This document shows, in pieces, positions 20,983-41,880 of a stretch of DNA of 41,880 bases (position 1 is the stretch's first letter; each line of letters begins with the position of its first letter). The stretch spans positions 1 through 41,880 of the forward strand of contig CAADGK010000068.1 in assembly GCA_900696515.1 (NCBI GenBank), written 5' to 3'. Both the position numbers and the translations under genes were made by a program. The stretch is from an uncultured Nitrosospira sp. (GTDB lineage Bacteria; Nitrospirota; Nitrospiria; Nitrospirales; Nitrospiraceae). The notes below the pieces were generated by a model. It was not told where the DNA came from and did not search any database. It was given only the letters and a program-made list of their open reading frames with translations.

Positions 20983-20997
20983 CCGTCCGTTGGACTC

Positions 20998-21028: not shown

Positions 21029-21065
21029 CTGTTCGACCAATTCGTTCGCTTTATAACGCGCGCAC

Positions 21066-22277: not shown

Positions 22278-22327
22278 TGGATCTGCTGAGATTACGAGTA
22301 ATGAGTTCTCCTCGCCCTGGTTGAACA

Positions 22328-23443: not shown

Positions 23444-23586
23444 CGAACCTCTGTTCCCCTCTGAATTGGGTCGTAGCGTAAGGGTTTTTTTAGATATCTG
23501 CGATAGGCGAGCATGCCTTACATCGCTCTCTATGTTGGCCAAGATCTGTACGCCCCTACTAGCTGGTTAGGACACATTGGATAGGG

Positions 23587-27104: not shown

Positions 27105-27168
27105 GCCGGCACCACCGATGCACGGGTAGAGGCCCAATACTCGTACGCACCGACCAAAGGAATACGAT

Positions 27169-28621: not shown

Positions 28622-28918
28622 TCACAGCGGCCAGCCATCATCTGCGAAACTATAGAGACGGTCGTCACCGAGAATGAGATGGTCAAGCAGTCTGATACCC
28701 AGGAGTTCTCCAGCTTCGCGCAGCCGTGTGGTGAGGGTCCGATCCTCCGGACTCGGCGTGGGATCTCCGGAGGGATGATTGTGGACAGGTACGACGTGAA
28801 GTCGCGTTGATGATTGTTCAATACGAAAGGAACACCGTAAGCGAACCTTCGCTTCCGTGCGTAGTAGCCTATCGGCACAGGCATGACTGGTAACGGTCGG
28901 TCGAAGCTGCCGAGACAA
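28622..28918 (-). pseudogene. RadC-family (JAB/MPN domain) C-terminal remnant
   Basis: The frame holds the JAMM-type motif HNHPSGDPTPSPED, then LTTRLREAGELLGIRLLDHLILGDDRLYSFADDGW, the normal end of RadC-like proteins on mobile elements. RadC is usually ~160-220 residues. Here only the last ~60 are recognisable, and the upstream ~38 residues do not match. An overlapping frame (28567-28884) suggests an ancient frameshift. The fragment sits downstream of the relaxase gene in the island. Confidence 0.75.
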
Positions 28919-29055
28919 TGTACCCTCGCCTGTCAGGGCGCGGCGGCTGCCTGAGGGAGCCGAAGGTGTCGTATTCGTGTCATTGAGCAGACAACGGTCG
29001 CGGTCGATCGATCGTCTTTGCCGTTGCCTCCCTGTGTCGTCGATGACAGACCGCC

Positions 29056-30039
29056 TTACCGTTCACGATCTTTCCCTCTATCCCGCTGTACCTCCGAAGT
29101 TCGCCTTCGTCCCCCCAGATAGCGGACGAGATCCATTGCCAATTGCCGATCCTCACCTCGATCGGATCGCGCGAGCGTCTTCATGACGTGTTCGTAGTGA
29201 TGCATCACCTCACGCTGCTTCCTCGGCAGATGCGTCTGGCGTTGCTGACGATCCAGCACTTTCGCCTTTGTTATGCGATCACGGAGATGTTGTACCCTCC
29301 ACCGTTCATGCGTCGTGTGGTGAATTCGGCTCGTGGTCGTGGCCTCAATCCCATGCTCTCGTAACGCCTCCGCAAACCCCTCTCGCCAGCGTTGCAGATC
29401 AGCCTTCCTTGGATTCAAGCGAATCCCGTCAAGGCCCGCCGCTTTGACCGTGAGATGCACATGTGGATGCGGAGACGGGTTCGGATCCGGATCGGTCTCG
29501 AAGGTGTGGAGGACCATCGCGTATTGAAACCCTAAGAACTCCCGTGTCGCGAAGTCTCGGGCCGCGCGCTGCACCGATAACGGATCGGTGCGTATCGGCA
29601 TGGAAAGGACGAGATGAAAAGCATCACGCATGGTCGAGTCCACGGCGATCGGCATGCCGCCGTCGCGCCATTCGGCTTTCAGATCCGCCACGGCCTCCTT
29701 CCCGAGAATCACCTGGCCATCCTGATCCTCGATCTCGAGTTGGCCATCACGCGAAATGTAGGTGAGGTTGTTCGAGATGCCCTTGATCCCTTTCGGCGCC
29801 CTGACGAGTTTCACCGCGACTTGTGGCGCGCGGCGGACCATGGCTTGCAGTTTCTGCCGCACATTATTCGCACGAGCCTGTAGCGTGTTGAGTCTCCCAC
29901 CAGTGCTTGATGACTTGAGTGAACCAAGACGAACACGCTTGCTGGACCGTGGCCGTGGCAGGGTCTCCGTTGAGACATTGAAGAGCCGACTCCCCCACTC
30001 ATCCAGACGCTCGTCGATGTGGCTGATGGTTGGACTCAT
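29056..30039 (-). CDS. Relaxase/mobilisation nuclease (MOBP/VirD2-like)
   Basis: 327 residues. The metal-binding three-His motif is HPHVHL (His191, His193, His195). It is preceded by FQYAMVLHTFETDPDPNPSP and followed by KAAGLDGIRLNPRKADLQRWREGFAEALREHG, typical of relaxases with the VirD2 fold. A candidate catalytic Tyr is Tyr94 in NLTYISRDG. ATG 30039 overlaps the mobC-like stop by 4 bases; the frame upstream of that is the mobC region read in another frame. It should nick the transfer origin and stay bound to the 5' end of the moved strand. No coupling protein or type IV secretion genes are seen, so the element would need a helper. Confidence 0.88.
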   Translation of the reverse strand: MSPTISHIDERLDEWGSRLFNVSTETLPRPRSSKRVRLGSLKSSSTGGRLNTLQARANNVRQKLQAMVRRAPQVAVKLVRAPKGIKGISNNLTYISRDGQLEIEDQDGQVILGKEAVADLKAEWRDGGMPIAVDSTMRDAFHLVLSMPIRTDPLSVQRAARDFATREFLGFQYAMVLHTFETDPDPNPSPHPHVHLTVKAAGLDGIRLNPRKADLQRWREGFAEALREHGIEATTTSRIHHTTHERWRVQHLRDRITKAKVLDRQQRQTHLPRKQREVMHHYEHVMKTLARSDRGEDRQLAMDLVRYLGGRRRTSEVQRDRGKDRER

Positions 30040-30587
30040 TGGAGCTGCCAGCGCTCCACCGTCCCGCGTAAGACATCGGACACCTTCTTCGTATGGGCCT
30101 GAATCACGCGAGAGAGTTCGGTGATGACCTCGACCCGAAAGGATCCCCGATTTTGAGGCGCGGTATTCAAGACTTTCGCAATCTGGTTCAAGTTCCTGCC
30201 TAAGGCCAGCAGTTGCTGATTCGACCGGGCCAAGGTCTCTAATTCCGGCTCCCCCACCTGCGGCTGCCCGGTCAACTTGGTACGGACCATCGCCACCAGC
30301 CATTTCGTCGGCACATAGCCTTCTTGACCGGCCATCTTCTTCAGGGCGGCGAGCTCTGAGGTCGTCAGGTTCAATTCGATGCGAGCGGTTGCTCGCTCAC
30401 GCTTCGGGGTGACACGACTCCGAGGCGTAGGGGCCGGGGTGGCTCTCCGATCCATGGTCTGCCGAATGGCGTTCCGCAGAGCATGGCTCGGTGTGAGTCC
30501 ATGGGCCTGACACCAGGCCTGCCAGGGCGCTTTGATCTCCCCCAGATCCACCGTGACTGTGGTCGTCCGTTTCGCTCGCTGCCCCAT
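30036..30587 (-). CDS. MobC-like plasmid mobilisation (relaxosome) protein
   Basis: 183 residues. The basic N-terminal part carries RTTTVTVDLGEIKAPWQAWCQAHG and a ribbon-helix-helix-like ARIELNLTTSELAALKKMAGQEGY. The C-terminal half contains LARSNQQLLALGRNLNQIAKVLN, the MobC signature. It helps the relaxase bind and open oriT. ATG 30587 follows a GGTGAG site. It is the first gene of a two-gene mob operon, with the candidate oriT immediately upstream, the usual arrangement. Confidence 0.87.
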   Translation of the reverse strand: MGQRAKRTTTVTVDLGEIKAPWQAWCQAHGLTPSHALRNAIRQTMDRRATPAPTPRSRVTPKRERATARIELNLTTSELAALKKMAGQEGYVPTKWLVAMVRTKLTGQPQVGEPELETLARSNQQLLALGRNLNQIAKVLNTAPQNRGSFRVEVITELSRVIQAHTKKVSDVLRGTVERWQLQ

Positions 30588-30703
30588 CAACTCACCCGTA
30601 CCAGCCTCAAATCAAGATACCCAACTCCCCTCACCGACCGGTGGCTGATTCTGGTCATTGGAGGGTCAGAAAGCCTGGGCACAAGAATACGATAAACCCA
30701 TAA

Positions 30704-30761
30704 TGTAAGACAACTACGGGCTATAGCCATATCCTGCTAACCTCTTAAAATCCGTCTTACA
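30704..30761. other. Candidate origin of transfer (oriT)
   Basis: Upstream of the mobC-relaxase operon lies ATATCCTGC (30729-30737). It matches the MOBP/IncP nick consensus ATCCTG/C, predicting cleavage between 30736 and 30737. The site is enclosed by an 8-bp inverted repeat (TGTAAGAC 30704-30711 and GTCTTACA 30754-30761) and preceded by the palindrome GGCTATAGCC (30719-30728). The position and motif agree with the relaxase type; function is inferred. Confidence 0.6.
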
Positions 30762-30904
30762 CCATGCCTCCGGCAAGCGAAACATGCTGGCATGAGGAGT
30801 CGGCTGGTCCGGTTTCCAGCCATTCGGGGGTCCCGATTTGAGGGGGGAGCTCTTCCTGTTATCCTGTGACAGGGAACACCCTGTACGCTGTTGAGGTCAC
30901 AAAC

Positions 30905-31720
30905 ATGCGCATGACTGGGACACACGTTCTTCGAGGCCTTCTGGCACTCGGCATGATAAGTGGGCTCGTGGCCTGTGGCAGCTTCGCCAACTGCTTCAAT
31001 AGTGGGTTCGCCCCCGCCGCCTGTGGCGGCGGGTATAGCGAGGGCGACGTTTCCTCTCCTCCGCAGCCCACGGCCACTTCGGCGGAAGGTCGCTGGACGG
31101 GTACGACTTCTACCGACCGCACCGTCGCTGGACTCGTCCTGGAGGACGGCTCCTATTGGCTGTTCCATTCGGCAAAAAACAATCCCAATATCCTAGCTGG
31201 AATGATTCACGGAATGGGCACGTCACACTCTGGCTCCTTTGGGTCCTCGAATACGAGAGATTTTAATGTGGAAGGCGCGGGTATTCGCGCAGCGACAATG
31301 CGTGGCAGCTATGTGCCGAACAAGAGCTTTGACGGGAGGATCGCCTACTTCACTGGTGACACAGAGAACTTCACAAGTACGTACGATGGGGACTCTAAGT
31401 CGGCCCCGAATCTGACTCTGGTGACCGGGACCTATGCTGGGCTCCGTTCCGACAATCACCAGGTCACCGTGACCGTGGAATCAGTTGGAACGCTTTCCGG
31501 TCATTCGACCGATGGATGCACCGTTGCTGGGACCTTGTCTCCTGATGCGAAAGGCGATGTGTTTCATACCTCTCTGACATTCGATGATGGCTCCTGTCGC
31601 CAGGGAACCGAGACGCTCACGGGGGTCGCCTTCTACGATATCGCCACACAACGGCTGTACATTGCCGCCCTCAACCATACCCGGACCACCAGCTTTCTCT
31701 TTCTCGGCACAAAGCAGTAA
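30905..31720 (+). CDS. Lipoprotein of unknown function, beta-rich
   Basis: 271 residues. A lipoprotein signal ends in ISGLVAC (Cys24), then a Gly/Pro/Ser linker. The mature part has repeated beta-type segments: EGRWTGTTSTDRTVAGLVLEDGSYWLFHS, MIHGMGTSHSGSFGSSNTRDFNVEG, GRIAYFTGDTENFTSTYDGDS and DGCTVAGTLSPDA. ATG 30905 follows GAGGT with 7-base spacing, giving a proper lipoprotein signal, so the longer frame from 30866 is rejected. I recognise no enzyme. It is a surface or periplasmic lipoprotein carried in the island next to the oriT. Confidence 0.75.
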   Translation: MRMTGTHVLRGLLALGMISGLVACGSFANCFNSGFAPAACGGGYSEGDVSSPPQPTATSAEGRWTGTTSTDRTVAGLVLEDGSYWLFHSAKNNPNILAGMIHGMGTSHSGSFGSSNTRDFNVEGAGIRAATMRGSYVPNKSFDGRIAYFTGDTENFTSTYDGDSKSAPNLTLVTGTYAGLRSDNHQVTVTVESVGTLSGHSTDGCTVAGTLSPDAKGDVFHTSLTFDDGSCRQGTETLTGVAFYDIATQRLYIAALNHTRTTSFLFLGTKQ

Positions 31721-31763
31721 GCCTCACCGGTTCGATGTTCTGTCTTAGGGTATTTATTTTGAT

Positions 31764-31793
31764 GGGGGCATGACCTGGTCAGATCATACCCCC
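31764..31793. terminator. Hairpin between convergent genes, probable terminator
   Basis: GGGGG and CCCCC close a stem that continues with ATGA/TCAT. It lies between the lipoprotein stop (31720) and the stop of the minus-strand gene at 31811. The flank on the left is A/T-rich. Confidence 0.5.
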
Positions 31794-31810
31794 TGAAAGG
31801 ATCGACGAGA

Positions 31811-32236
31811 TTACGGAGACAGGATCTCTCGCACCGCGGTCGAGGCAAAGAAGCCCTGCTCTCGGAGCGTGGCAAACCAGGCTCTGGCAAACTCCTTCAA
31901 GTCCTGCTTCAGCGAGGACACAACGTGGGTGCGCCTGCCCGCCTCGTCATACCGATACACTTCTTGCGAAAGCCCCAGGTAGTCGTTCCGGAACGACACC
32001 GGTTCGGCTGCCGCGCCGTCGGACAGATCCGTGACCATGAACACTAGATCGCAATCACGCATCAGATCGCCGTTCTGTTCACCATACTGACAGAGGGACA
32101 CCAACCGGTGCCCGTCTCCACTGGTTCCAATCTCCTCGATCGAAAGTGGAAGGTAGCCGCGGACTGTGATCCGCACCGCGCGTGCGCCAGCGAGGAGCTC
32201 GTCAAGAAGCTTCGCGCATTCCAGATAGGTTTCCAT
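31811..32236 (-). CDS. Probable DUF6908-type protein of mobile elements
   Basis: 141 residues, acidic. Segments such as VRGYLPLSIEEIGTSGDGHRLVSLCQYGEQNGDLMRDCDLVFMV and FRNDYLGLSQEVYRYDEAGRR match my memory of the DUF6908 family found on plasmids and integrative elements. No catalytic motif is visible and the function is unknown. ATG 32236 follows AAAGGA. Its upstream leader lies within the segment duplicated at 36184. It is downstream of the 80-residue protein gene on the same strand, separated by a hairpin terminator. Confidence 0.65.
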   Translation of the reverse strand: METYLECAKLLDELLAGARAVRITVRGYLPLSIEEIGTSGDGHRLVSLCQYGEQNGDLMRDCDLVFMVTDLSDGAAAEPVSFRNDYLGLSQEVYRYDEAGRRTHVVSSLKQDLKEFARAWFATLREQGFFASTAVREILSP

Positions 32237-32261
32237 TGAATTGTTCCTTTCTTCAAATGCA

Positions 32262-32293
32262 GGAAGCCCCCGGCGCGAGGGCCGGAGGCTTCC
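32262..32293 (-). terminator. Hairpin terminator after 80-residue protein gene (copy 1)
   Basis: GGAAGCC(T/C)CCGGC arms pair around a GCGAG loop, directly after the stop at 32302 on the minus strand. The paired copy is at 36206-36237. Confidence 0.6.
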
Positions 32294-32301
32294 TGTGACG
32301 G

Positions 32302-32544
32302 TCAGCGGTCTGACCGCTCCGCGATCCAGCGTGTCGCCTGTTGGGCGACGACGATCAACGCGTCAAGGTCTGCGCCTCCGAAGGAGTCGGAATTCTTCCA
32401 GACTCCATCCTGCCCCTTGTACGAGCGGGCGACGGTCACGTTGTAGAACGGACCGTTCATGCCCTCGTTCTTCCAGATGCTCGCCTTGATGCGGCTGCAT
32501 CGGAGCGTGGTGACCGGCTGGGGTTTCTTGTCTTGAGGTGCCAT
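32302..32544 (-). CDS. 80-residue protein of unknown function (copy 1)
   Basis: It starts MAPQDKKPQPVTTLR, with the core IKASIWKNEGMNGPFYNVTVARSYKGQDGVWKNS and the C-terminal helix LIVVAQQATRWIAE. The pattern (short beta-strands with aromatic residues, then a helix) looks like a small nucleic-acid-binding fold, but that is speculation. The copy at 36247-36489 differs at only three positions (Asp/Glu, Gly/Val, Ala/Pro near residues 53-58). Both copies have a GGAG ribosome site and share the same upstream structured region, suggesting selection to keep it. Similar small proteins occur on mobile elements as far as I recall. Confidence 0.75.
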   Translation of the reverse strand: MAPQDKKPQPVTTLRCSRIKASIWKNEGMNGPFYNVTVARSYKGQDGVWKNSDSFGGADLDALIVVAQQATRWIAERSDR

Positions 32545-32643
32545 AGTGTTGTCTCCTTGAGTTAGAGTTGATGTGTTGGCCTCTCACGAAGCAGTGGAGG
32601 CCACACAGCGACGACAAAGGAGACAGAGAGGCCGTCGGCACCG

Positions 32644-32731
32644 GGCGGGCCGGTGGGCGCGAAGCGGAGGAATGCCCGTGAAAAGGAGCCGCCTCAGAGG
32701 CGGCGCGCGGGCATGATCGACGCAGCCCGCC
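32644..32731 (-). ncRNA. Nested hairpin element upstream of 80-residue protein gene (copy 1)
   Basis: Three nested helices: outer GGCGGGC (32644-32650) with GCCCGCC (32725-32731), middle ATGCCCG (32672-32678) with CGGGCAT (32708-32714), inner GCCGCCTC (32688-32695) with GAGGCGGC (32697-32704). In copy 2 the outer and middle helices are kept, while the inner helix has a different sequence that still pairs. It lies 100-190 bases before the gene start. It could be a leader RNA, small RNA or single-stranded DNA structure. Confidence 0.5.
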
Positions 32732-33020
32732 GGTGGAAAGCCAGGGCGACGGCCGGATGCCACAGGCACCGGACCTGAAACCACAAGCTGGTTCCCGCTC
32801 ATCACCAGGACAGCATTGGAGAGCAGATCCAACGGACGAGGCGAGAAGGTCCTGTTCAGAAAGGCCGAAGCGACCAAGCTCGTTCACCAAGATGGAAGCG
32901 AGTCAACGAATCGGCTTCGAGATGATCTTGAGATTGTGACGGTTATCAGCCAGCAGGCGACTATGCTCCCGGCTTTATTGGTTGCTGAACGCGGAAGAAG
33001 GCCGAACGGCCCGAGTAGGC

Positions 33021-33188
33021 GGAAGACGAAATGTTCCGTGATCACGGGGAACTCTGGAGGCTATGGGCACGTGTCGCTGCACACGATCGCTCTCAACCGA
33101 GCACGATCGGTGCTCCGGCCTTCCGAAATCTTCGCAACCGCTCGCATGGTTGACTTGCGTAGCACGATAAACGTCGCTACAGTCGACC
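33021..33188. other. Stretch between duplicated segment and brnT remnant
   Basis: No gene recognised. The plus frame 32816-33196 has no family match. Confidence 0.3.
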
Positions 33189-33302
33189 ATGCGTGATAAG
33201 CGGGTCGTGGCGATGGCTCACTCCCCGTGCGGGCACAAAGTGACGCGCATCATCTCCATGCGAAAGGCGAACCGACGCGAGCAGAGAATCTCTCAGAAGT
33301 GA
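33189..33302 (+). pseudogene. BrnT toxin C-terminal remnant
   Basis: The frame reads MRDKRVVAMAHSPCGH..., then TRIISMRKANRREQ. The latter is the conserved BrnT ending (RIISxRKAxxxE). Only 37 codons remain of a ~90-residue toxin; the catalytic N-terminal part is absent. Its stop abuts the brnA-like frame that follows, as in an intact brnT-brnA operon. Confidence 0.75.
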
Positions 33303-33303
33303 T

Positions 33304-33594
33304 TTGGCGAGACTTGACCGACTGAAGGATCGGGACATCGACTACTCCGATACCCCGCCATTAGATGACGCATTTTTCAAGAAGGCCAGGATGGTCGCCT
33401 GGCCACCGGCGAAGCAACAAGTCACGGTGCGTCTCGACGTCGATGTGCTCGACTGGCTCAAACTGCATGGGAAGGGCTATCAAACGCGGCTGAACCGCAT
33501 TTTACGCGCAGCCATGGAGCACCAGGATCCGTGCCGATCACGCACGCCGAAGAGTCGTGCACGATCGCGTCGACGCCCCCATACGACGTCATGA
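33304..33594 (+). CDS. BrnA-family antitoxin (toxin partner broken)
   Basis: About 96 residues. DRDIDYSDTPPLDDAFFKKARM leads to VTVRLDVDVLDWLKLHGKGYQTRLNRILRAAME, the ribbon-helix-helix DNA-binding domain of BrnA antitoxins. In-frame homology (ERRTDAS...SDLARLD) continues upstream of the TTG at 33304 into the brnT remnant, and no ATG exists in that frame. The true start is therefore unclear and the gene may be 5'-damaged. BrnA normally neutralises BrnT RNase and represses the operon. Here it is an orphan antitoxin, possibly a repressor or anti-addiction factor. Confidence 0.72.
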   Translation: MARLDRLKDRDIDYSDTPPLDDAFFKKARMVAWPPAKQQVTVRLDVDVLDWLKLHGKGYQTRLNRILRAAMEHQDPCRSRTPKSRARSRRRPHTTS

Positions 33595-33675
33595 AGATTC
33601 GCGTGATCAGCGCCTGTCCAGAGCATTGAGGAGAGCGAAGCCACTATGACACGAGGGGACGTGAAGTCATCCCCT
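33592..33675 (+). pseudogene. Remnant of a second BrnT-like toxin/antitoxin junction
   Basis: MKIRVISAC... followed by a GGAG ribosome site and ATGACACGAGGGGACGTGAA matches the junction of the BrnT-like toxin and its antitoxin at 38370-38455. Only the last toxin codons and first antitoxin codons survive, and the segment is cut by the abiE operon. Confidence 0.65.
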
Positions 33676-34536
33676 CTCCCCCAATTTCAATACCTGGCTG
33701 AGCGGCAATTCGAGAAATGTGCGCACTTCGCGAACCACGATGTCCAGGGTCGGCCCTTCCAGGCGATTCTTCGCGAGAAACGCGTTCCACTGAGCCTGCT
33801 TGACCTTGTCCCGAGCAAACTGATCGTCCAAACCCAACAACATACCGACCGGTAGCGGTGTACGGCGCCGTTCGAAGGTTGCGCGTATCGCTTCAGAAAG
33901 GATGAGTGGGTCGATAGCTCCCTCGCGCGCGAGCGCCCGTAGATCGAAATAATCTTTCATCCGACTGTTGGCGATGCCGAGAGTTGCAATCGCCTCCAGC
34001 TTTTCTGCAATCACGGTCTCGCGCGGATACACCTTCAATCGCGGGGCGGGGAGATCGTCGAGCAGCGTCGGATACAGTGCTTCTTCCGGCCCCGGGGTCA
34101 CCGCGTCGCCATAGCCAACATCGAGCTGCACTGGACACCGTGCGTTCTTCAATCTGCCCGTCAGCGTGACCCGCAATCCTCCGTAGCGCGCATCTTCTCG
34201 GATCTCACGAACCCGTATCGAATCCGGCTCATAGCGCATGCCGTCCGGCACGTCGATCGTGCACGCATCGTGGACCATGGATTTCAGTGCGTCCTGATCC
34301 GCCGATCCGAAGCCCAGAAAATCTGCATCGCGCGTCGGTCGATGCGGCACGTCGAACCACAAGTCAAAAAGCAGGGCGCCCTTGAGCCACAGGATGTCGC
34401 GCGCAGGAGTGAGGGAAAGCCGGTATAGGAATCGCTCGATACCGTAGCGGGTGAGCACCTCCTGAAAAATTTCGCCACGCACCTTTGCGCGGGCAGAGAG
34501 CCGCGCATGGATGGAGGCAGCAAGGTCTGCCTTCAC
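33667..34536 (-). CDS. AbiEii/AbiGii-type nucleotidyltransferase toxin
   Basis: 289 residues. The nucleotidyltransferase motif is LKGALLFDLWFDVPHRPTRDADFLG, with the Asp pair in DAD. The family segments YPRETVIAEKLEAIATLGIANSRMKDYFDLRALAR are also present. Type IV abortive-infection toxins of this family transfer nucleotides to RNA, as shown for MenT, blocking growth upon phage attack. The GTG at 34536 overlaps the antitoxin stop in a GTGA, supporting this start over the ATG at 34599. The operon appears complete. Confidence 0.9.
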   Translation of the reverse strand: MKADLAASIHARLSARAKVRGEIFQEVLTRYGIERFLYRLSLTPARDILWLKGALLFDLWFDVPHRPTRDADFLGFGSADQDALKSMVHDACTIDVPDGMRYEPDSIRVREIREDARYGGLRVTLTGRLKNARCPVQLDVGYGDAVTPGPEEALYPTLLDDLPAPRLKVYPRETVIAEKLEAIATLGIANSRMKDYFDLRALAREGAIDPLILSEAIRATFERRRTPLPVGMLLGLDDQFARDKVKQAQWNAFLAKNRLEGPTLDIVVREVRTFLELPLSQVLKLGERG

Positions 34537-35135
34537 ACCGTCGCCTCCAAGTATGGGCGCATCACATTGGCAACCCGATTCACTTTTGCGCAGCGCCACA
34601 GCTCGTCGGCCGTCGCCTTTCGTTCACGCAGCGCGTCCCTAAGGGCATCGAGCGCCACGTCGAGCCCAACCTTGTTCCGGAATTTGAAACAATCCGCCAC
34701 CGTCTTCGCCGGGCTCGTGATCCGCAGGGCCACACCTTCCACCTTTCTCACTTCCACACCATACCGCAGCGAGGAATCAGAAAAGCGCACGGTCCGCAGC
34801 GGCGGATCGTCGAGACGAGGTGGATGCTCGTTGTTCGCAATCGCGATCCACACATCGAACGGCGATTGCGTTGTCATCTCGTGGAAGCGCAGCGCAGTCA
34901 GCAGACAGAACACGACCTTCGGCGCTCGCTTCGCCACGGCAGCGAGCGCGCTGTGTTCGGTGCCCTGATAGTCCGTAGACGCATACAGCCCGCGCCCGAT
35001 CTTTTGGAGCTTTCCTGCCGACACCAGCCGCACGATCTGTGTACGGGTAATCCCTGCTTGCTCCAACTCGCGTGTGCGTACCGCGCCTGCGCTGCGCAGC
35101 GCATTCCTCAGCCGATCTTCTATGGGTTTCACCAT
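34533..35135 (-). CDS. AbiEi-type antitoxin/transcriptional regulator
   Basis: 200 residues. The N-terminal winged helix (LRSAGAVRTRELEQAGITRTQIVRLVSAGKLQKIGRGLYAS) precedes the AbiEi antitoxin domain (VVFCLLTALRFHEM, DVWIAIANNEHPPRLDDPPLRTVRFS, RITSPAKTVADCFKFRNKVGLDVALDALRDAL). It represses its own operon and counters AbiEii without direct binding (type IV). ATG 35135. A candidate promoter at 35146-35174 would give an almost leaderless transcript. Confidence 0.9.
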   Translation of the reverse strand: MVKPIEDRLRNALRSAGAVRTRELEQAGITRTQIVRLVSAGKLQKIGRGLYASTDYQGTEHSALAAVAKRAPKVVFCLLTALRFHEMTTQSPFDVWIAIANNEHPPRLDDPPLRTVRFSDSSLRYGVEVRKVEGVALRITSPAKTVADCFKFRNKVGLDVALDALRDALRERKATADELWRCAKVNRVANVMRPYLEATV

Positions 35136-35145
35136 TGCACCATGT

Positions 35146-35174
35146 TACATAGTTTCGGTAATTAATAACAACAA
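35146..35174 (-). promoter_or_regulatory. Candidate sigma70-like promoter of abiE operon
   Basis: On the minus strand TTGTTG (35174-35169) and TATGTA (35151-35146) are 17 bases apart. The -10 box lies about 10 bases before the abiEi ATG. Matches to consensus are moderate. Confidence 0.35.
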
Positions 35175-35490
35175 CCGAAGAAAAGCAACGGGCCTGCGCA
35201 GAGCTGAATGCAAGTCTTGAGGGCGGCTGAACTCTAAAAGCCGTGTCGGCGCTGGGCTAACTTCCATCGGTCCGTGGCGTCACCGGCCATCTCGCAGAAC
35301 TTCTCGGCAATCTCGATCCGCACATCGTCTGGGACGATGCCACGTCTTGCCCCCCCACTGAAGCGCCAAACCGATACTGACCGGCCTTACACAGCGGATT
35401 TGCACACCGGCTTCTGTTCAATAGATTGTTGCGCCCCTCACCGACGCTGGGAGCGCAGCACACCTCCCGAATCTGTGGCAGGACGTCCTG
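35175..35490. other. Intergenic stretch with repeat copy at its right end
   Basis: No gene recognised. The right part (35353-35480) is a repeated segment, see next entry. Confidence 0.35.
35353..35480. repeat. Repeat B copy 1 (second copy 37829-37950)
   Basis: The two copies align over ~120 bases. Both include TGTTGCGCCCCTCACCGAC and a closing arm (GCGCAGCA here, GCGCAACA in copy 2), so a hairpin is kept with a G-U to A-U change. No coding frame is evident. Confidence 0.65.
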
Positions 35491-35709
35491 CTAATAGTAT
35501 CCAGGCTGGCTCCGGCTATACGGATCACGTTGAGAAGCCGGCGGAGGTTCGTCGTAACGGTGCTGTTGGCCCGGCTGCGACGATCCCATATTCACGTTGT
35601 CATAGCCAGGCGCGGGTCGTTGCCGACCCGAAAAAGAATCATCGGCACAGCCAGCGATCATGGCACCCGCCAAAAGAGCAACGGGCAGCGTGCATAGCAT
35701 ACGAATCAT
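35491..35709 (-). CDS. Small lipoprotein, unknown function
   Basis: 72 residues. A clean lipoprotein signal (LCTLPVALLAGAMIAGC, Cys21) is followed by a short Pro/Gln/Tyr-rich polar tail. ATG 35709 follows AAGGAGG with 6-base spacing, so expression is likely. No family recognised. Entericidin-like or other small toxin-associated lipoproteins are of similar size, but nothing specific supports that. Confidence 0.65.
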   Translation of the reverse strand: MIRMLCTLPVALLAGAMIAGCADDSFSGRQRPAPGYDNVNMGSSQPGQQHRYDEPPPASQRDPYSRSQPGYY

Positions 35710-35824
35710 ACGAAACCTCCTTCGTCATTCGGAATTACTTCGATGCCGTTTTCATCCAACCAGTCTACTGTACATACAAAATATCGTTACCTTGCAAGCC
35801 TTCTTCACCCTAGCTGGCCAGCAG

Positions 35825-35889
35825 TGGTCCATGTCTGGATACAACTGTTCGCATTTATCTGTAAGTGTATGCATATTTATCCATACCTA
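35825..35889. promoter_or_regulatory. Repeat A copy 1: operator-like inverted repeats before abiEi remnant
   Basis: TGGATA...TATCCA flank an inner imperfect repeat around GCATTTA...TAAGTG. The segment ends directly at the ATG of the abiEi remnant (35890). The second copy at 37698-37757 keeps the outer repeat perfectly (GCATGGATAA/TTATCCATGC). Probably an AbiEi-type binding site. Confidence 0.5.
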
Positions 35890-36200
35890 TGAAGCGCGTT
35901 GAGCTGGATCGCTACACTAAAGCTGTGTTCCGCCGCCATCGAGGCATCCTACGAACCTCTCAAGCCCTACAGCTCGGGATCCATCCACGCATTCTCTACC
36001 GACCCTCATCTTCTGGCCTACTCTCCTGAGAGTGCGATCGCGGAGAAATTTCAGTCGATGGTGCAGCTGGATTCGGCGAACAGCCGAATGAAGGATTATT
36101 ATGACATTTGGCTGCTTGCCAGCGGTCATCCATTGGTGGCTCTGTTGTCAGCGAAGCGCTCCAGGCCACGCTTACGCAGCGGCTTGTTTCCTTTCTTCAG
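35890..36200 (+). pseudogene. Deleted abiEi-abiEii operon remnant
   Basis: The frame from ATG 35890 reads MKRVELDRYTKAVFRR...GILRTSQALQLGIHPRILYR, the winged-helix start of an AbiEi antitoxin, and stops soon after. An overlapping frame then reads LLAYSPESAIAEKFQSMVQLDSANSRMKDYYDIWLLASGHPL, the C-terminal half of an AbiEii toxin, and shifts frame again near 36120. A large internal deletion has joined antitoxin start to toxin end. The fragment is cut at the edge of the duplicated segment. Confidence 0.75.
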
Positions 36201-36205
36201 ATGCT

Positions 36206-36237
36206 GGAAGCCCCCGGCGCGAAGGCCGGAGGCTTCC
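36206..36237 (-). terminator. Hairpin terminator after 80-residue protein gene (copy 2)
   Basis: Same GGAAGCC...GGCTTCC hairpin as at 32262-32293, just past the stop at 36247 on the minus strand. Confidence 0.6.
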
Positions 36238-36246
36238 ACACTGTGG

Positions 36247-36489
36247 TCAGCGGTCTGACCGCTCCGCGATCCAGCGTGTCGCCTGTTGGGCGACGACGAT
36301 CAACGCGTCAAGGTCGGGGACTCCGAAGGACTCGGAATTCTTCCAGACTCCATCTTGTCCTTTGTACGAGCGGGCGACGGTGACGTTATAGAACGGACCG
36401 TTCATGCCCTCGTTCTTCCAGATGCTCGCCTTGATGCGGCTGCATCGAAGCGTGGTGACCGGCTGGGGTTTCTTGTCTTGAGGTGCCAT
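36247..36489 (-). CDS. 80-residue protein of unknown function (copy 2)
   Basis: Nearly identical to the protein at 32302-32544, with substitutions only near residues 53-58 (NSESFGVPDLD instead of NSDSFGGADLD). Start, ribosome site and terminator hairpin are conserved. Most nucleotide differences between the two copies of the gene are silent, indicating purifying selection or a recent duplication. Function unknown. Confidence 0.75.
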   Translation of the reverse strand: MAPQDKKPQPVTTLRCSRIKASIWKNEGMNGPFYNVTVARSYKGQDGVWKNSESFGVPDLDALIVVAQQATRWIAERSDR

Positions 36490-36588
36490 AGTGTTGTCTC
36501 CTTGAGTTAGAGTTGATGTGTTGGTCTCTCACGAGGCAGTGGAGGCCACACAGCGACGACAAAGGAGACAGAGAGGCCGTCGGCACCT

Positions 36589-36676
36589 GGCGGGCCGGTG
36601 GGCGCGAAGCGGAGGAATGCCCGCGAAAGACGACGCGAGTTCTCGCGGTGCGCGGGCATGATCGACGCAGCCCGCC
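36589..36676 (-). ncRNA. Nested hairpin element (copy 2)
   Basis: Outer GGCGGGC (36589-36595) pairs with GCCCGCC (36670-36676). Middle ATGCCCGCG (36617-36625) pairs with CGCGGGCAT (36651-36659), two base pairs longer than copy 1. Inner CGCGAG (36634-36639) pairs with CTCGCG (36642-36647). The inner helix shares no sequence with copy 1 but occupies the same place. Confidence 0.5.
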
Positions 36677-36960
36677 GGTGGAAAGCCAGGGCGACGGCCG
36701 GATGCACACAGGCACCGGACCCGAAACCACAAGCTGGTCCCCGCTCATCACCAGCACAGCATTGGAGAGCAGATCCAACGGACGAGGCGAGAAGGTCCTG
36801 TTCAGAGAGACCGCAGCAACTAAGCTCCTTCGCCACAGTGGAAGAGAATGAACACGTCGGCTTCGAGACGGTGTTGACCTTGACGCGCTTGTCGGCCAGC
36901 AGGCGACCAACTACACCTCAGATGGTTGCTGAACACCGTGGAATGCTGAACGGCCCGGTT

Positions 36961-37116
36961 GAAGCCGAGGGGAACTGTGATGGGATCGGAGACGCGAAAT
37001 CGTTGAGGTGCGCGACAGGTTGAACGCATGAGCGAGTCGTGAGCAAGATGAAAAGCAAGCCATGTCGCGAGAGATGCCTATCCATCCATTGGGACGGCCC
37101 CTGATCGTGTTCCCAC
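36961..37116. other. Short gap, nothing recognised
   Basis: No family-like frame between the duplicated segment and the toxin remnant. Confidence 0.3.
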
Positions 37117-37302
37117 TCACCGTCCGTCAAACAGGTCGGCGTGCGTGCCTGTCCGTTCGAGGATGAGGAAGGTGGCTTCGATTCTGTAGATCAGAAGCCA
37201 GTCTGGTTGGAATGCCACACAAGGGTTACGTGCCCGTGCGGCTTCTGATGGCGCGAAAGTTTTTAAATGATGGGAGTTGCTCGGGATGCTTCGCTTCTTC
37301 AA
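37117..37302 (-). pseudogene. YafQ/RelE-type toxin C-terminal remnant
   Basis: The C-terminal ~35 residues (FQPDWLLIYRIEATFLILERTGTHADLF) match the YafQ end (PDxxLIYRxx...LxRxGSHSELF). The first ~50 residues of the toxin, including most of the fold, are missing; the frame's N-terminal part is unrelated and overlaps the antitoxin gene. Without that part, ribosome-dependent RNase activity is unlikely. Confidence 0.7.
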
Positions 37303-37504
37303 AGGCCTCCCGCGTATGTACGTTTGGGATTATGAGCGGAAAGGGAATACCCTGGTGGAGTTCCACCTGAGCATAAAAGAGACGAATGGCTTCGGCTTGA
37401 GTCAAACCGAGTCGCTCAAAAACTTTCACGGCCTTCCTCTTCAGGCCAGCATCAATACGAGTATTGATACGGCCAGACGTCGCGACCCGTCCGGCTTTTC
37501 TCAT
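37226..37504 (-). CDS. RelB/DinJ-family antitoxin
   Basis: 92 residues. The ribbon-helix-helix part RINTRIDAGLKRKAVKVFERLGLTQAEAIRLFYAQVELHQGIPFPL is characteristic of DinJ. The C-terminal toxin-binding tail follows (THTREAFEEAKHPEQLPSF-like). ATG 37504. The linked YafQ-type toxin is truncated, so this is an orphan antitoxin; its tail overlaps the remnant frame. It could still repress its promoter or neutralise related toxins elsewhere. Confidence 0.85.
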   Translation of the reverse strand: MRKAGRVATSGRINTRIDAGLKRKAVKVFERLGLTQAEAIRLFYAQVELHQGIPFPLIIPNVHTREAFEEAKHPEQLPSFKNFRAIRSRTGT

Positions 37505-38004
37505 GTTCCCAGTACGCCAGTTGTCGTGCTCATGAACGATGATTCTCCGTAGTACTCTGTGGGTTGGGTGAAGGTAGCCACCTTCAATAGCCCATTTTCT
37601 GCGCTTGCGCGTCGTGGGTGAGCGATGCGTGCCTGTCCATCCACCACTGGACCTGGTTGGGTCGAATAGTCCCCGCAGAATCGAGAGCTAGCCGAGAGTG
37701 GTCCATGCATGGATAACACTGTTTGCATTTAATTGTAAGTGCATCTTTATCCATGCCACCTCTGACGTGGTGCCATTCATGAAAAGAGTATTTCCTTCTG
37801 ATCTCTTCCTCACTCCTTCTCAATCCCCATTGAAGAACCAAACCGATCCTGAACGGTCACACACAGCGGATTTGCCGACGGACCTCTTCGTAACACATTG
37901 TTGCGCCCCTCACCGACACCGGAGCGCAACAGAATCTCCCAGTCTGTGGCCACGCACGACTGCAAGCGTGACACCGTCCTCGGTGGCGCGGTTGCCTCAG
38001 GCGT

Positions 38005-38058
38005 GCCACACCCCTTGACGGGCGACGGCTATTCTCTCGGCACGGCGCGTGCCCGAGA
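38005..38058. repeat. REP-like repeat unit 1 with hairpin
   Basis: GCCACACCCC, an 8-base variable part and CGACGGCTATTCTC are shared with 39657-39688. A strong hairpin follows (TCTCGG-CACG...CGTG-CCCGAGA, 38035-38058), unlike in sequence to the one after the second copy. The second copy abuts a truncated REP-associated transposase. Confidence 0.55.
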
Positions 38059-38078
38059 TCCCCGGTACCGTTCCTAGA

Positions 38079-38106
38079 ATAGTGTTAGGATAGTGTCCTG
38101 ATAGTG
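38079..38106. promoter_or_regulatory. Three 11-bp direct repeats (ATAGTG) upstream of brnT
   Basis: ATAGTG begins at 38079, 38090 and 38101, exactly 11 bases apart, 28-55 bases before the toxin ATG. One helical turn per repeat suggests cooperative binding by a ribbon-helix-helix antitoxin. Confidence 0.5.
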
Positions 38107-38133
38107 GCGTATGGTGACATGGCTGTTCGCTGA

Positions 38134-38466
38134 ATGGTTGTTGATCTGGCCTTAAACACGACGACGTTCGCGTTCGAATGGGACGAGGGCAACCGCACTA
38201 GGAATGCGACCAAGCACGACGTGACCACTGACGAGGTGGAGAGCGTGCTTCGCCTCAAACGAGCCGTCCCTCTCGGCGTACAGACCAGCCCTGTCGTCAA
38301 CGAACTACGCCTGGGACTGGTGGGGCGATCAGACCGTGGACGCGTGCTGCAGATCACCTTTACCTTCCGAGGAAGCAAGATCCGCGTGATCAGCGCCCGG
38401 CCGGCTCATCGAAAGGAGCGAAGCCAATATGACACGATGGCGCGTGAAATCTTCCCCGACTTATAA
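38134..38466 (+). CDS. BrnT-family toxin (RelE-like RNase)
   Basis: 110 residues. The core FAFEWDEGNRTRNATKHDVTTDEVESVL, then LGLVGRSDRGRVLQITFTFRGSKIRVISARPAHRKERSQY, matches BrnT (FxWDxxKxxxNxxKHxV ... RxISARxAxxxERxxY). It appears full length and intact. The antitoxin gene immediately downstream (38429-38655) is frameshifted, which would be harmful unless the toxin is inactive, silent or neutralised by another antitoxin such as the orphan BrnA at 33304. Iteron-like repeats precede it. Confidence 0.82.
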   Translation: MVVDLALNTTTFAFEWDEGNRTRNATKHDVTTDEVESVLRLKRAVPLGVQTSPVVNELRLGLVGRSDRGRVLQITFTFRGSKIRVISARPAHRKERSQYDTMAREIFPDL

Positions 38467-38655
38467 AGGCCCGTGTGACCTCGCACCCGAGCATGTGCTC
38501 GCGGCCATGCGACGATACAAGACGGCGAAGAAGAAACCGACGAGCGTACCCTCAAAGAACTGAAGACGCTGGCGGCCCACCAAGGCATTCCCTATCAAGT
38601 CCTCATGCGCGTCTTTATTCTCCGTGGGATCGAGAGCATGAAACAAGCCTCGTAA
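38429..38655 (+). pseudogene. Frameshifted antitoxin gene paired with the BrnT-like toxin
   Basis: The frame from ATG 38429 gives a 44-residue product (...MRRYKTAKKKPTSVPSKN-stop at 38561). A second frame continues the expected antitoxin: DERTLKELKTLAAHQGIPYQVLMRVFILRGIESMKQAS, ending at 38655. A small indel near 38520-38550 separates them. The second part is a ribbon-helix-helix-like segment of CopG/BrnA-type antitoxins. A strong AAGGAG lies upstream of the ATG inside the toxin gene. Confidence 0.75.
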
Positions 38656-38854
38656 CTCACGTGCCCACACTGTATGGGCCCAGATAATGCTGACGCTCTC
38701 TTTGTAACTGTGCTACCTGCTACATACCCAGTCGCAGCAATGCCCGGCAGGCCATCGAGAAAGAAACGGGGGGGCGTTCTTTGGAGCCTGTACGCAAGCC
38801 GATGATCTACTGGGTGATAATTGTACGCGTAGTGGGTCGACCTTGGGCGAGGAT
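38656..38854. other. Gap between the two toxin-antitoxin loci, nothing recognised
   Basis: No frame or structure worth naming was seen. Confidence 0.3.
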
Positions 38855-39187
38855 CTAATACAGCTCAATGAGCCGCTCACCTTGTTCAAGGTTGGCGATC
38901 ACTTGAGAGAACAGGGGCTGAAACCACCGGACAAGTGCCGCGTTGGAGCAGTTACCGATCCGGACCCAGACAACGGGCGTTATCGGTAGAGAGGCAAGTA
39001 AGAGAATATTCTTAAAGTCTTCATCCTTTGTGATGATGGTCTGGGCATTGGCCACGGCGTAGTTCCAGATCGCCTGGTCCGTTGCGAGGAGTATGCCTAC
39101 TTCTTCGACGTGAACGGCTCCATGGCCGAGAGATATGATAAGACGAGCTAATGCTGGAGGGAGCTGAGCGTCAATCAGGAAGTTCAT
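38855..39187 (-). CDS. DUF5615 PIN-like toxin
   Basis: 110 residues. FLIDAQLPPALARLIISLGHGAVHVEEVG, TKDEDFKNILLLASLPITPVVWVRIGN and the C-terminal helix match the DUF5615 PIN-like family, with acidic residues Asp7 and the TKDEDF pair as likely metal ligands. Such proteins are putative RNases. ATG 39187 overlaps the DUF433 stop by 4 bases. The pair looks intact. Confidence 0.88.
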   Translation of the reverse strand: MNFLIDAQLPPALARLIISLGHGAVHVEEVGILLATDQAIWNYAVANAQTIITKDEDFKNILLLASLPITPVVWVRIGNCSNAALVRWFQPLFSQVIANLEQGERLIELY

Positions 39188-39408
39188 CCGGCCCGGAGCA
39201 TGACATGATCGGACTGAGCCGCTGCAAATTCAAGGGCCGCCTGAATATCTTCTTTCTCAAGATAGGGGTAATCCTGCAGGATGGTCTCCGTTGACACACC
39301 AGCTGCCAGCAGGTCGAGGATGTCTTTCACACGGATCCGCATCCCACGAATACAGGGGCGACCACCGCACTGGGACGGATTGACGGTAATGCGCGCGAGT
39401 ACACTCAT
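39184..39408 (-). CDS. DUF433 antitoxin
   Basis: About 74 residues. RITVNPSQCGGRPCIRGMRIRVKDILDLLAAGVSTETILQDYPYLEKEDIQAALEFAA is the DUF433 signature, a helix-turn-helix antitoxin usually found with DUF5615 toxins. ATG 39408 is the family-like start; the frame upstream to 39444 is less likely. The order antitoxin-toxin with a 4-base overlap is standard. Confidence 0.88.
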   Translation of the reverse strand: MSVLARITVNPSQCGGRPCIRGMRIRVKDILDLLAAGVSTETILQDYPYLEKEDIQAALEFAAAQSDHVMLRAG

Positions 39409-39508
39409 GAGAATATGGTACCGCCGTCTATTGCTGAAGATCAATGTTATTTATTGAACTGTCCTGGTCACGAATGCTGGAACGAAAATGGGGGCTTCTG
39501 CTTTTGCC

Positions 39509-39673
39509 ATGTCCCGTCGCCTACGCACTAGAACTGGTGCCGTCTACCATGTCACCAGTCGTGGTAATACCCGACAAAACATCGTTGCAGTTGATCGAGC
39601 CCGCATACTGTCGCAGGAACGGCTTACCCACGTCATCGATCGATTCAGGTGGCGCTGCCACACCCCCTCATAA
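39509..39673 (+). pseudogene. Truncated REP-associated tyrosine transposase (RAYT)
   Basis: MSRRLRTRTGAVYHVTSRGNTRQNI...ERLTHVIDRFRWRCH matches the first ~50 residues of RAYT/TnpA(REP) proteins, including AVYHVTSRGN. The His-x-His and catalytic Tyr regions that follow are gone; the frame stops within a repeat shared with 38005. It is inactive but points to REP mobilisation. Confidence 0.8.
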
Positions 39674-39727
39674 ACGACGGCTATTCTCCTGGCACGGTCG
39701 AGTCGCCCGACGCGACACGACGGTGCC
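39657..39727. repeat. REP-like repeat unit 2 with hairpin
   Basis: Shares the head of unit 1 (GCCACACCCC...CGACGGCTATTCTC). Its hairpin is GGCAC (39691-39695) with GTGCC (39723-39727), enclosing GTCGC/GCGAC (39702-39716). Confidence 0.55.
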
Positions 39728-39738
39728 CAACTCCACCT

Positions 39739-39764
39739 GGCACGGCGTCTCCGGACGCGGTGCC
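39739..39764. repeat. Strong palindrome next to REP-like unit 2
   Basis: GGCACGGCGTC and GACGCGGTGCC form an 11-bp stem with one central mismatch and a 4-base loop, followed by GGCATGCC. The cluster of hairpins fits a REP/BIME array next to the RAYT remnant. Confidence 0.5.
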
Positions 39765-40038
39765 TCAGAGGCATGCCTGCCGAAGCCCCTCGCTCAGTAC
39801 AGGCCAGCAATGCCTCAGTAGAAACTCGCCCGAATCTCAGCCATTCTGCGGACCCAGGGCACAGACATGCACCTACCTAACCCATGGTCCTTTCTTTCGT
39901 TCGTACCCCTACTTTTTCGGTATGGTCATAAAATCTGAACCCTTTCATAAGTGCTCGTCTCGATGGGGGTACGCATGTGTCAGTTGGCTCACTCGGGCAC
40001 ATGAGGTAGCGCCTGGAGGAAAGGCCTCTTGAAACACC
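39765..40038. other. Gap before the excisionase gene, nothing further recognised
   Basis: Presumably holds the promoter of the excisionase-integrase operon. No gene seen. Confidence 0.35.
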
Positions 40039-40236
40039 ATGAATAACCTTTTGACAATGGATGAGGCCGCGAAGTATTTAGGCATATCCAAATTGACCCT
40101 GTACGGATGGGTCTCCGCAAGGAAATTGGGGTACGTCAAGATGGGACGGCTGGTGAAGTTTAAGCAGGCTCAGCTGGATGCCTGGATCGATCAGCACACG
40201 ATCACACCACGGAGAGACAGCCATGGGACTCACTAA
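40039..40236 (+). CDS. Excisionase-family helix-turn-helix protein
   Basis: 65 residues. LTMDEAAKYLGISKLTLYGWVSARKLGYVKMGRLVKFKQAQLDAWIDQHT is the MerR-type/excisionase (HTH_17) domain, covering nearly the whole protein. It lies directly upstream of and overlaps the integrase gene by 14 bases, as recombination directionality factors often do. It probably steers integration versus excision or controls int expression. Confidence 0.88.
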   Translation: MNNLLTMDEAAKYLGISKLTLYGWVSARKLGYVKMGRLVKFKQAQLDAWIDQHTITPRRDSHGTH

Positions 40237-41332
40237 GCGGCGCGATGGTTACTATGTCGAGTTCCGTGTGAGGGAAAGTGCGGACGGCACAGCGTGGAGC
40301 CTCGCGAGTGGCGTACCCGGTGCCAGAAAAAAACGATGGAAGGTGGGGTGCCTGAACAAGACGATCGCGCGCGAGATGGAAGCCGCGATCAAAACTCGTT
40401 TGCTCTTGGGACACGAAAAAACCGAACAGGCCAAGCCGATTCTCTTCAAGGAATGGGCAACGGCCTACCTGAACCTCGAATCAATCAAGACGCTCCGCAG
40501 CTATCAAGATCGACTCGAGATCATGGAGCGGCAGCTGATCCCCTTCTTCGGTGGAAAGGTCCTAACGGAGATCAGGCCCCATGATGTAGAGGCTTTCCGA
40601 GCACAACGGAAGAAGAAGAATGGAACAAAGCCGAGTATTCAGACCGTGAACAATGACCATGTCGTACTTAAACACTGTTTGAACGTGGCAATCCGACGGG
40701 GGCTCTTACAGATTAATCCCGCTACTAGGGTTCCGCTTCCTGATCCACAGAACGCCAGAGATAGAGTATTAACTGAAGAGGAATGGACGAAACTCTACGA
40801 GGCCGCAAAGGGACATCTCAAGCCCGTCCTGTTACTCGCCTATCAGCTGGGCCAGAGATTTGGGGAGATCGTCGGTCTGACCTGGGACAGGGTTGATCTC
40901 AAGAGAGGCTTTATCATGCTTCGTAGTCAGGACACGAAGACGAAGAAACCTCGCCAAGTCCCAATGACTCCAGATATACGAATGACCCTTCAACGTCTGG
41001 CGAAGGTCCGTTCACTCTCAACACGTCATGTCTTTACATTCAGAGGCAAACCTATACAACGTATCAGCCGATCTTTTCGTACAACCTTGAAGGATGCCGG
41101 AATTACAGACTTCCGGTTTCATGATCTTCGGCATTGTGCATCTACGAACTTGCGACGGGCAGGAGTCGACACAGCCACGGCAATGAAGATCGTGGGTCAT
41201 AAGTCTGAGAAAATGTGGAAGCGTTACAATGCAATCGAGGAACGCGACTTGGTTCAGGCAGCGCTGAAAATTCAAAAATATCTCCAAGAGAACACGCCGG
41301 GAACACTTGACCCCAAGACCGAGAGTCTGTAA
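40223..41332 (+). CDS. Tyrosine-type site-specific integrase
   Basis: 369 residues. The N-terminal arm-binding segment starts MGLTKRRDGYYVEFRVRE. The SAM-like core-binding domain is about 80-175, and the catalytic domain about 185-345. Catalytic residues: Arg212 (YQLGQRFGEIVGLTW), His300 and Arg303 (FHDLRHCAST), His326 (IVGHKSEKMW) and Tyr335 (WKRYNA). The set is complete. ATG 40223 follows GGAGAG. It reads towards a tRNA fragment that starts 28 bases after its stop, a usual integration-site context. Its tail (ENTPGT) contains the 20-base repeat shared with 5273-5292. Confidence 0.93.
   Translation: MGLTKRRDGYYVEFRVRESADGTAWSLASGVPGARKKRWKVGCLNKTIAREMEAAIKTRLLLGHEKTEQAKPILFKEWATAYLNLESIKTLRSYQDRLEIMERQLIPFFGGKVLTEIRPHDVEAFRAQRKKKNGTKPSIQTVNNDHVVLKHCLNVAIRRGLLQINPATRVPLPDPQNARDRVLTEEEWTKLYEAAKGHLKPVLLLAYQLGQRFGEIVGLTWDRVDLKRGFIMLRSQDTKTKKPRQVPMTPDIRMTLQRLAKVRSLSTRHVFTFRGKPIQRISRSFRTTLKDAGITDFRFHDLRHCASTNLRRAGVDTATAMKIVGHKSEKMWKRYNAIEERDLVQAALKIQKYLQENTPGTLDPKTESL
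41287..41306 (+). repeat. 20-base direct repeat, copy 2
   Basis: Identical to 5273-5292; located in the 3' end of the integrase gene. Confidence 0.7.
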
Positions 41333-41359
41333 AAGTGCAAGTTATTGATATTTGGCCTT

Positions 41360-41395
41360 GCCCCCGTAGCTCAGTTGGATAGAGCAGCGGTTTCC
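41360..41395 (+). tRNA. 5' half of a tRNA gene, probably tRNA-Arg(CCU)
   Basis: GCCCCCG acceptor strand, TA, D-arm GCTC/GAGC with AGTTGGATA loop, then GCGGT-TT-CC leading into the anticodon. In tRNA-Arg(CCU) this continues TAAACCGC; here it changes to CAGCCTGC and no T-arm (GTTCGA) or acceptor end follows within the window. The break falls inside the anticodon loop, a favoured crossover site for tyrosine integrases. Confidence 0.7.
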
Positions 41396-41880
41396 CAGCC
41401 TGCCCGGCGGAGCGCGGTCGTGGCCAGCGGGACCAAGGCCGTTTCTTCGTGCGGCTTCTGAGGCAGGGGGTCACGACTCACAGGCACCAGATCCATAACT
41501 GCACGGTCCTCCTAGAACCTCACAGGGAGCGGGGTCCGACCGGGGTCGCCGCCAACGGCCAGGGACTGCTCCATTTCGACATCTATATAAATGGAGTCGG
41601 TCTCGCGTTGCTCGTGACCGGGACGTCCAGCCGTCCTCCATTTCTATGGATAGAAGCGGAGGGATCCTCGACCCGTTCCCTCCGTGGGGCTCCCCTCCTC
41701 AGTCTCCTCTTCCTGCTCTCTCTACATATAATGGTGGATCTGTACCCCCTACCAATCCATGCGACCCACCAGGAGACGATTTCCTCTCGACCCGAGTTCC
41801 CCGGTCTTTCCCTTCCCCGCCCCGACCTTACCCCTTCCCCATCCGAAGATCAAGGCATCCGAGAAGGGTGCCATCCCGGA
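41396..41880. other. Non-coding, pyrimidine-rich region with hairpins at window end
   Basis: No convincing frame on either strand. Two hairpins share the string CTCCATTT: CTCCATTT/AAATGGAG (41569-41596) and CCTCCATTTCTAT with ATAGAAGCGGAGG (41635-41662, one mismatch). The rest is C/T-rich on the plus strand. It could belong to another mobile element joined at the tRNA. Confidence 0.4.

Follow-up and report, generated by a model that had tools for sequence, protein, structure and literature searches.

Half of a tRNA-Arg(CCU) gene in a Nitrospira contig very probably marks the end of a 36-kb integrative element inserted into the recombinase gene of another mobile element

Introduction

Near the right end of a 41,880-nucleotide stretch of DNA from an uncultured member of the Nitrospiraceae (contig CAADGK010000068.1, here C68), the 5′ half of a tRNA-Arg(CCU) gene breaks off in the anticodon loop downstream of a tyrosine integrase gene, and no 3′ half follows. 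This stretch, hereafter the window, is the whole contig, one of 144 in a genome of 4.59 Mb. What such a half gene marks is the question raised by this locus; an earlier note, made from the letters of the window, suggested that it may be either a host half displaced by integration from the other side or the result of an insertion within the tRNA gene. Here, we report evidence that the half gene is almost certainly the right attachment (att) half-site of a 36-kb element (element A) integrated at a secondary site, namely a tyrosine-recombinase gene belonging to a second, plasmid-like mobile element (element B).

Results

Two adjacent features define the right end of element A:

40178..41332, plus strand: tyrosine integrase of element A (PF00589, E 1.6e-29; relatives)
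41360..41395, plus strand: element-borne 5′ half of tRNA-Arg(CCU), right att half-site (exact match to C49:2507; an intact tRNA occupies the same position in most relatives)

Bases 41360-41395 on the plus strand were identical to the first 36 bases of an intact tRNA-Arg(CCU) gene elsewhere in the same genome (C49:2507-2583), for which the earlier note had suggested a search; as a control pattern gave 0 matches, this identity is not due to chance. The half stops after the CC of the anticodon, 27 bases beyond the integrase stop, the integrase open reading frame (ORF) ending at 41332, which upholds the description of a tRNA-Arg(CCU)-like 5′ half broken in its anticodon loop beside an integrase. 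The integrase has the phage-integrase catalytic domain (PF00589), and an element end with a tRNA 5′ part stands next to it in the window. The reported lack of a 3′ half behind the break was likewise borne out: the DNA beyond 41395 is not tRNA-like, ARAGORN called no tRNA anywhere in the window, and Rfam returned a single sub-threshold miRNA match, with no intron or tRNA match, for bases 40000-41880. The covariance-model match and 3′ exon that characterize a group I intron were not found in those bases.

The DNA on both sides of element A was then identified from the following features, on the basis of comparison with other copies of the interrupted gene:

5135..41395, plus strand: element A, a 36.26-kb integrative, probably mobilizable element (both ends are the element ends in G011, contigs C4 and C77)
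5135..5138, plus strand: left junction, TTCC common core (recombinase ...GGCGGGAG, TTCC, TAATCCTCTCC, the last being the left end as in G011)
41392..41395, plus strand: right junction, TTCC common core (tRNA 5′ half ...AGCGGT, TTCC, CAGCCTGCC, the last being the recombinase gene)
4145..5138, minus strand: C-terminal part of the interrupted tyrosine-recombinase gene of element B (PF00589, E 1.3e-14)
41396..41496, minus strand: start of that recombinase gene, 101 bases or 33.7 codons (364-codon joined frame, aligned 1-364)
41497..41880, no strand assigned: upstream region of the element B recombinase gene, C/T-rich DNA (homologues upstream of other copies)

Element A begins at 5135 with TTCCTAATCCTC, and after 41395 come CAGCC and recombinase sequence; the right junction runs ...AGCGGT, TTCC, then CAGCCTGCCC. 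When the two flanks were joined via one TTCC, a single uninterrupted frame of 364 codons was obtained. Of 16 loci compared, 14 aligned with it over positions 1-364, some of these 14 being nearly identical to one another; the two that did not were a decayed copy and the window. The C/T-rich DNA behind the tRNA half is thus the start of the recombinase gene together with its upstream region. Bases from about 41761 to 41880 matched 12 other contigs at 72-83%, 11 of which have a copy of the recombinase (the exception is G004:C9), and the upstream region has a full-length homologue in G001:C7 (66%). Because 41398-41880 is homologous to G001:C7 in one stretch, and the matching left junction lies on the same contig as the right one, position 41396 is not an assembly break, a contingency that the earlier note had raised. 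The target shares 10 of 17 positions with the tRNA core, those of TTCC among them, and the anticodon-loop 7-mer TTCCTAA differs from the target TTCCCAG at 2 positions.

A near-identical copy of element A was found at tRNA-Arg(CCU) in another Nitrospira genome, G011. In a blastn comparison, window positions 5135-13864 were 100% identical to G011 (8,730 bp, 0 mismatches), 13865-33866 were 99.8% identical (20,002 bp), and 34576-41395 were 98.9% identical (6,820 bp), with 33867-34575 falling in the gap between G011 contigs C4 and C77. The outer matches end at window positions 5135 and 41395. In G011, a tRNA 5′ half followed by the left end of the element lies at C4:28727, and an intact tRNA-Arg(CCU), in which the host 3′ half comes after the element-borne 5′ half, lies at C77:6782. 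The restored tRNA and the displaced 5′ fragment at the far end are thus present at the G011 twin and are not displayed by the window copy. The flanks of tRNA-Arg(CCU) in the genome containing the window and in G011 were 82-90% identical (five BLAST pieces), in contrast to the near-identical element, suggesting that element A was acquired recently in at least one of the two genomes.

The arrangement in G011 is also the usual one among integrase relatives. Two integrase searches, one of them giving at least 30 loci, yielded 63 loci including the window, of which 48 were left after removal of 15 exact-sequence repeats. Among the matches listed, an intact tRNA on the same strand lay 10-29 bases past the integrase stop in 37 of the 48 distinct loci, and a tRNA lay on the opposite strand in five (L053, L054, L058, L086 and L093); the remaining six, in which no intact tRNA was found, comprised the window, three loci at a contig end (L044, L079 and L088), L052, where an apparent tRNA piece follows on the other strand, and L091. 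The last of these is decayed and consists of an integrase remnant, a 5′ half and a left end with an arm repeat, a layout that would be expected of two joined element ends. The tRNAs at the relatives' integrases were tRNA-Arg(CCU), tRNA-Arg(UCU) and tRNA-Thr(UGU), and the far element end (e.g., L096, L105, L106, L107 and L108) consisted of a displaced 5′ half ending TTTCCTAA and then the left end. The intact tRNAs after the integrases and the displaced halves at the far ends together indicate that these elements carry a tRNA 5′ half and cross over in the anticodon loop. The earlier note was therefore right to regard the half in the window as a product of site-specific integration that goes with the integrase and lies on the unusual 5′ side, but not in proposing a displaced host half, since such halves in relatives precede the left end of the element, unlike that in the window; nor does an insertion within a tRNA gene apply, the half having been brought along by the element itself to a secondary site within a protein gene.

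The names attached to 33 named loci with related integrases were Nitrospira in 30 cases and Nitrospirae or Nitrospiraceae bacterium in three, and the genome containing the window is accordingly assigned to Nitrospira. At L086 (1086-2291), tRNA-Arg(CCU) has an integrase relative (77% identical over residues 133-373, matched in two frames) on its 3′ side that converges on it; related integrases may thus act on one half or the other of a single near-palindromic anticodon site. At L033 and L034, tRNA-Arg(CCU) is preceded by a close relative of the integrase and followed by a distant relative, whole or in part (31-33% identity). In the genome containing the window, a 5′ half with 3 mismatches lies at C49:1397, 1.1 kb before the intact tRNA-Arg(CCU) (L012, 1397-2583), which points to an earlier insertion at the primary site that has since been largely lost.

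A pattern made from the left end of element A occurred once more in the same genome (G000), with 1 mismatch, at C70:806-833:

L116, 1-1348 (G000:C70), and L171 (G006:C55), no strand stated: related left end abutting an interrupted glycerophosphodiester phosphodiesterase (GDPD) gene (same junction in both)

What this second left end abuts is a GDPD gene (PF03009, E 3.2e-12), not a tRNA half. The C70 junction is shared with G006:C55 over 2,333 bp at 99.96%, and the second left end, as read in the G006 copy, resembles that of the window over about 212 bases (78%). In G034, G027 and G024, the GDPD frame continues upstream unbroken at the junction position. These observations suggest that the element A family enters protein genes now and then and that its site choice is relaxed.

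Further features of element A were as follows:

40039..40236, plus strand: putative excisionase of 65 amino acids, directly upstream of the integrase (PF12728 HTH_17, E 1.3e-13; role from position)
5276..5292, plus strand: left repeat GAACACGCCGGGAACAC, putative integrase arm site (same strand and sequence as 41290-41306)
41290..41306, plus strand: right repeat GAACACGCCGGGAACAC, putative arm site within the integrase 3′ end (sequence comparison with the left copy)
29056..30303, minus strand: MobA/VirD2-like relaxase (PF03432, E 2.7e-9)
33667..34599, minus strand: AbiEii nucleotidyltransferase of a type IV toxin–antitoxin system (PF08843, E 2.7e-47)

The more likely start of the integrase is the ATG at 40223 (residue 16), roughly where the matches of several relatives begin; the protein had no close relative among 1,115 phage records, all of them showing <60% identity. 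From its position, the HTH_17 protein is probably an excisionase, and the GAACACGCCGGGAACAC repeat near both ends is probably the arm site of the integrase. A longer arm-repeat string ending GTAGGGT was exact in five of seven related loci scanned and absent from L096 and L103. One ORF has the relaxase domain (PF03432) of an integrative mobilizable element, and no conjugation apparatus was seen among at most 25 of the larger element A ORFs that, besides the integrase and the HTH_17 protein, were run against Pfam; element A is therefore called probably mobilizable, its relaxase-based mobilization being a prediction. The cargo at 17688-27104 includes AlkA, O6-methylguanine methyltransferase, a Crp-type regulator, cytochrome P460, a MauG-type peroxidase and PqiA/MlaD/lipoprotein transport genes.

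The recombinase of element B had 14 other near-full copies in the 98 genomes searched (80-87% identity, residues 1-326 or 2-326), two of which, on C101 and C51, are in the genome containing the window; none of 120 plasmid records held a close relative, all matches being <60% identical. The C51 copy is joined through a 127-base overlap to C22, which encodes a ParA-like ATPase (Pfam) and a protein without a Pfam match that shares 35-40% identity with proteins from the ten best plasmid records, five of them annotated as replication protein. Element B is called plasmid-like on account of this ATPase and this similarity to plasmid records; the window ends before the region corresponding to the replication-like protein. 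As a continuation of the window itself, C22 was rejected, its match to the right end covering only 35 bases and not the 127-base overlap left by the assembler. The left flank of element A (600-4144) had matches in all 59 genomes searched, its own included, the longest cover outside the window, among the matches listed, being 936 bases (G007).

Short pieces of the 3′ end of the element B recombinase gene recur along each of four contigs (G031:C81, G018:C9, G004:C398 and G057:C2), such as would arise if every cassette or old insertion terminated with a copy of that 3′ end. A chlorite dismutase gene (PF06778) lies at C22:7306-8100 of G000, on the contig adjoining another element B copy, and the gene end preceding the C51 recombinase reads much like it.

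Discussion

Considering these results, we propose that the integrase of element A would normally recombine at the anticodon loop of tRNA-Arg(CCU), producing the order integrase, element 5′ half, host 3′ half; this would rebuild the tRNA gene and leave the host's own 5′ half displaced to the far end of the element. The window copy would instead have been inserted at a secondary site, codons 34-35 of the element B tyrosine-recombinase gene, by an exchange in or beside the 4-bp common core TTCC. Most likely, the element's own integrase recombined attP, where the circle of the element would join the 5′ half to TAATCCTC, with a poor secondary site. After such an insertion, the element's 5′ half would precede recombinase sequence, so that no 3′ half would ever have stood behind it. 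The insertion would sever the recombinase gene from its start and upstream region, though a GTG at 5125 could serve as the start of a 326-amino-acid product retaining two recognized domains.

Several observations weigh against this interpretation. The insertion was not found in a second genome, and the pattern for the empty site gave six matches in 79 genomes of the genus, each with 3 mismatches, the reversed control also giving six, which is chance level. No match to the right junction was found in viral contigs. With TTCC in place, 34 of 83,726 window positions match the tRNA core equally well, so the likeness of the site alone is no proof of integrase action; the action of the integrase is instead proposed because the ends of the element are exact. 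At the GDPD gene, a search of G000 and G006 with the N-terminal part of GDPD did not reveal the right end: the sole match in G000, 33 residues on another contig (C47), had neither a tRNA nor an integrase near it, and that in G006 was at 44% in another frame (380 amino acids); an old deletion is therefore possible there. Furthermore, the stray insertion is a single complete case, and its contig comes from a k-mer assembly with 127-base overlaps at contig ends.

The assembly accordingly bears on whether the contig is a chimera of a tRNA-integrated element and an unrelated contig. The 144 contigs and the 127-base repeats at both contig-end pairs compared (C68/C20 and C51/C22) speak for this; however, the two junctions are 36 kb apart, lie at the exact ends of the element and jointly rebuild an open frame of the length of the other copies, which a chimera would not yield, and we reject it as extremely unlikely. 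A tandem array or circular form, in which the half tRNA would be attP followed by the left end of the same element or of a second one of the family, has a counterpart in the junction present in L091. The left end of element A itself, reading TTCCTAATCCTC, nevertheless lies at 5135 on the same contig, recombinase sequence follows 41395, and the ends of the window share no overlap of 20-299 bases; with its left end within the window, element A cannot form such a junction here, and the chance left to this account is exceedingly small. The tRNA gene might also be split by an intron or an inner element, with its 3′ half beyond the window, as the break falls in the anticodon loop, a site used by introns and integrases alike. 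No intron was found by Rfam in bases 40000-41880, however, and the post-break DNA is the 5′ end of the recombinase gene, homologues having recombinase coding sequence at that place; an intron-split tRNA is ruled out by these homologues, and we consider this the least credible of all, with a practically negligible probability.

Insertion might otherwise be programmed, with the integrase clade having a second home in the recombinase genes carried by plasmid-like elements. The interrupted gene does belong to a mobile element, and helper-embedded satellites are a published precedent for a mobile element that resides within a gene of a different one (PMC10111431). Against this stand the single case, the uninterrupted start of the 14 other near-full recombinase copies, the weak likeness of the site to the tRNA core and the second left end outside a tRNA, whose place in a GDPD gene suggests that site choice is loose; programmed insertion is thus very unlikely. 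On a related conjecture, the clade would alternate between a chromosomal tRNA home and plasmid-like vehicles, and landing in the recombinase gene of a vehicle would fix the vehicle and add a second way to move; we regard it as distinctly improbable. Insertion of element A at a secondary site remains the reading that we adopt.

The two copies of element A form a natural pair in which both junctions of each give the exact ends of the element. The pair shows on how slight a likeness to the core (TTCC and 10 of 17 positions) an integrase of this kind may be able to act, with which the left end at the GDPD gene agrees. It also shows that a lone tRNA half next to an integrase is not always the sign of a tRNA locus, a point of relevance to island-finding programs based on tRNA fragments.

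Both islands with a tRNA 5′ half and integration at secondary sites have already been published. In the Islander report, islands with a 5′ fragment of the tRNA gene were a minority, 159 of 3919 (PMC4383910), and within this minority type the Nitrospira integrases are a well-populated group. Element A resembles these islands, as described there, in its tyrosine integrase, its crossover in the anticodon loop and the restoration of the tRNA by the 5′ part of the element; it differs in that the window copy is not in a tRNA gene, its Nitrospira relatives being at tRNA-Arg(CCU), tRNA-Arg(UCU) and tRNA-Thr(UGU). According to a review, it has seldom been seen in bacteria that a tRNA is restored by this route and expressed from the promoter of the integrase (PMC8371274). 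Unlike in the archaeal pTN3-like integrases treated there, the Nitrospira integrase gene terminates upstream of the tRNA and stays in one piece upon integration. Integration at a secondary site is known for SGI1, whose second, intergenic site was occupied either together with the first or by itself (PMC2297512), and for mycobacteriophage Fionnbharth, where four secondary sites in protein genes share only 3 well-conserved bases and were seen in phage lacking its tRNA (PMC10865867). Like these, element A is a site-specific element at a second site; unlike in those cases, its primary tRNA gene is intact and its target is the recombinase gene of another mobile element. A tRNA-specific element inside the recombinase gene of a plasmid-like element was not met in the literature searched, whose coverage left out most subscription journals. 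What is special here, compared with the known systems, is thus a near-identical element at both its regular site and a stray site, the latter being the recombinase gene of another mobile element.
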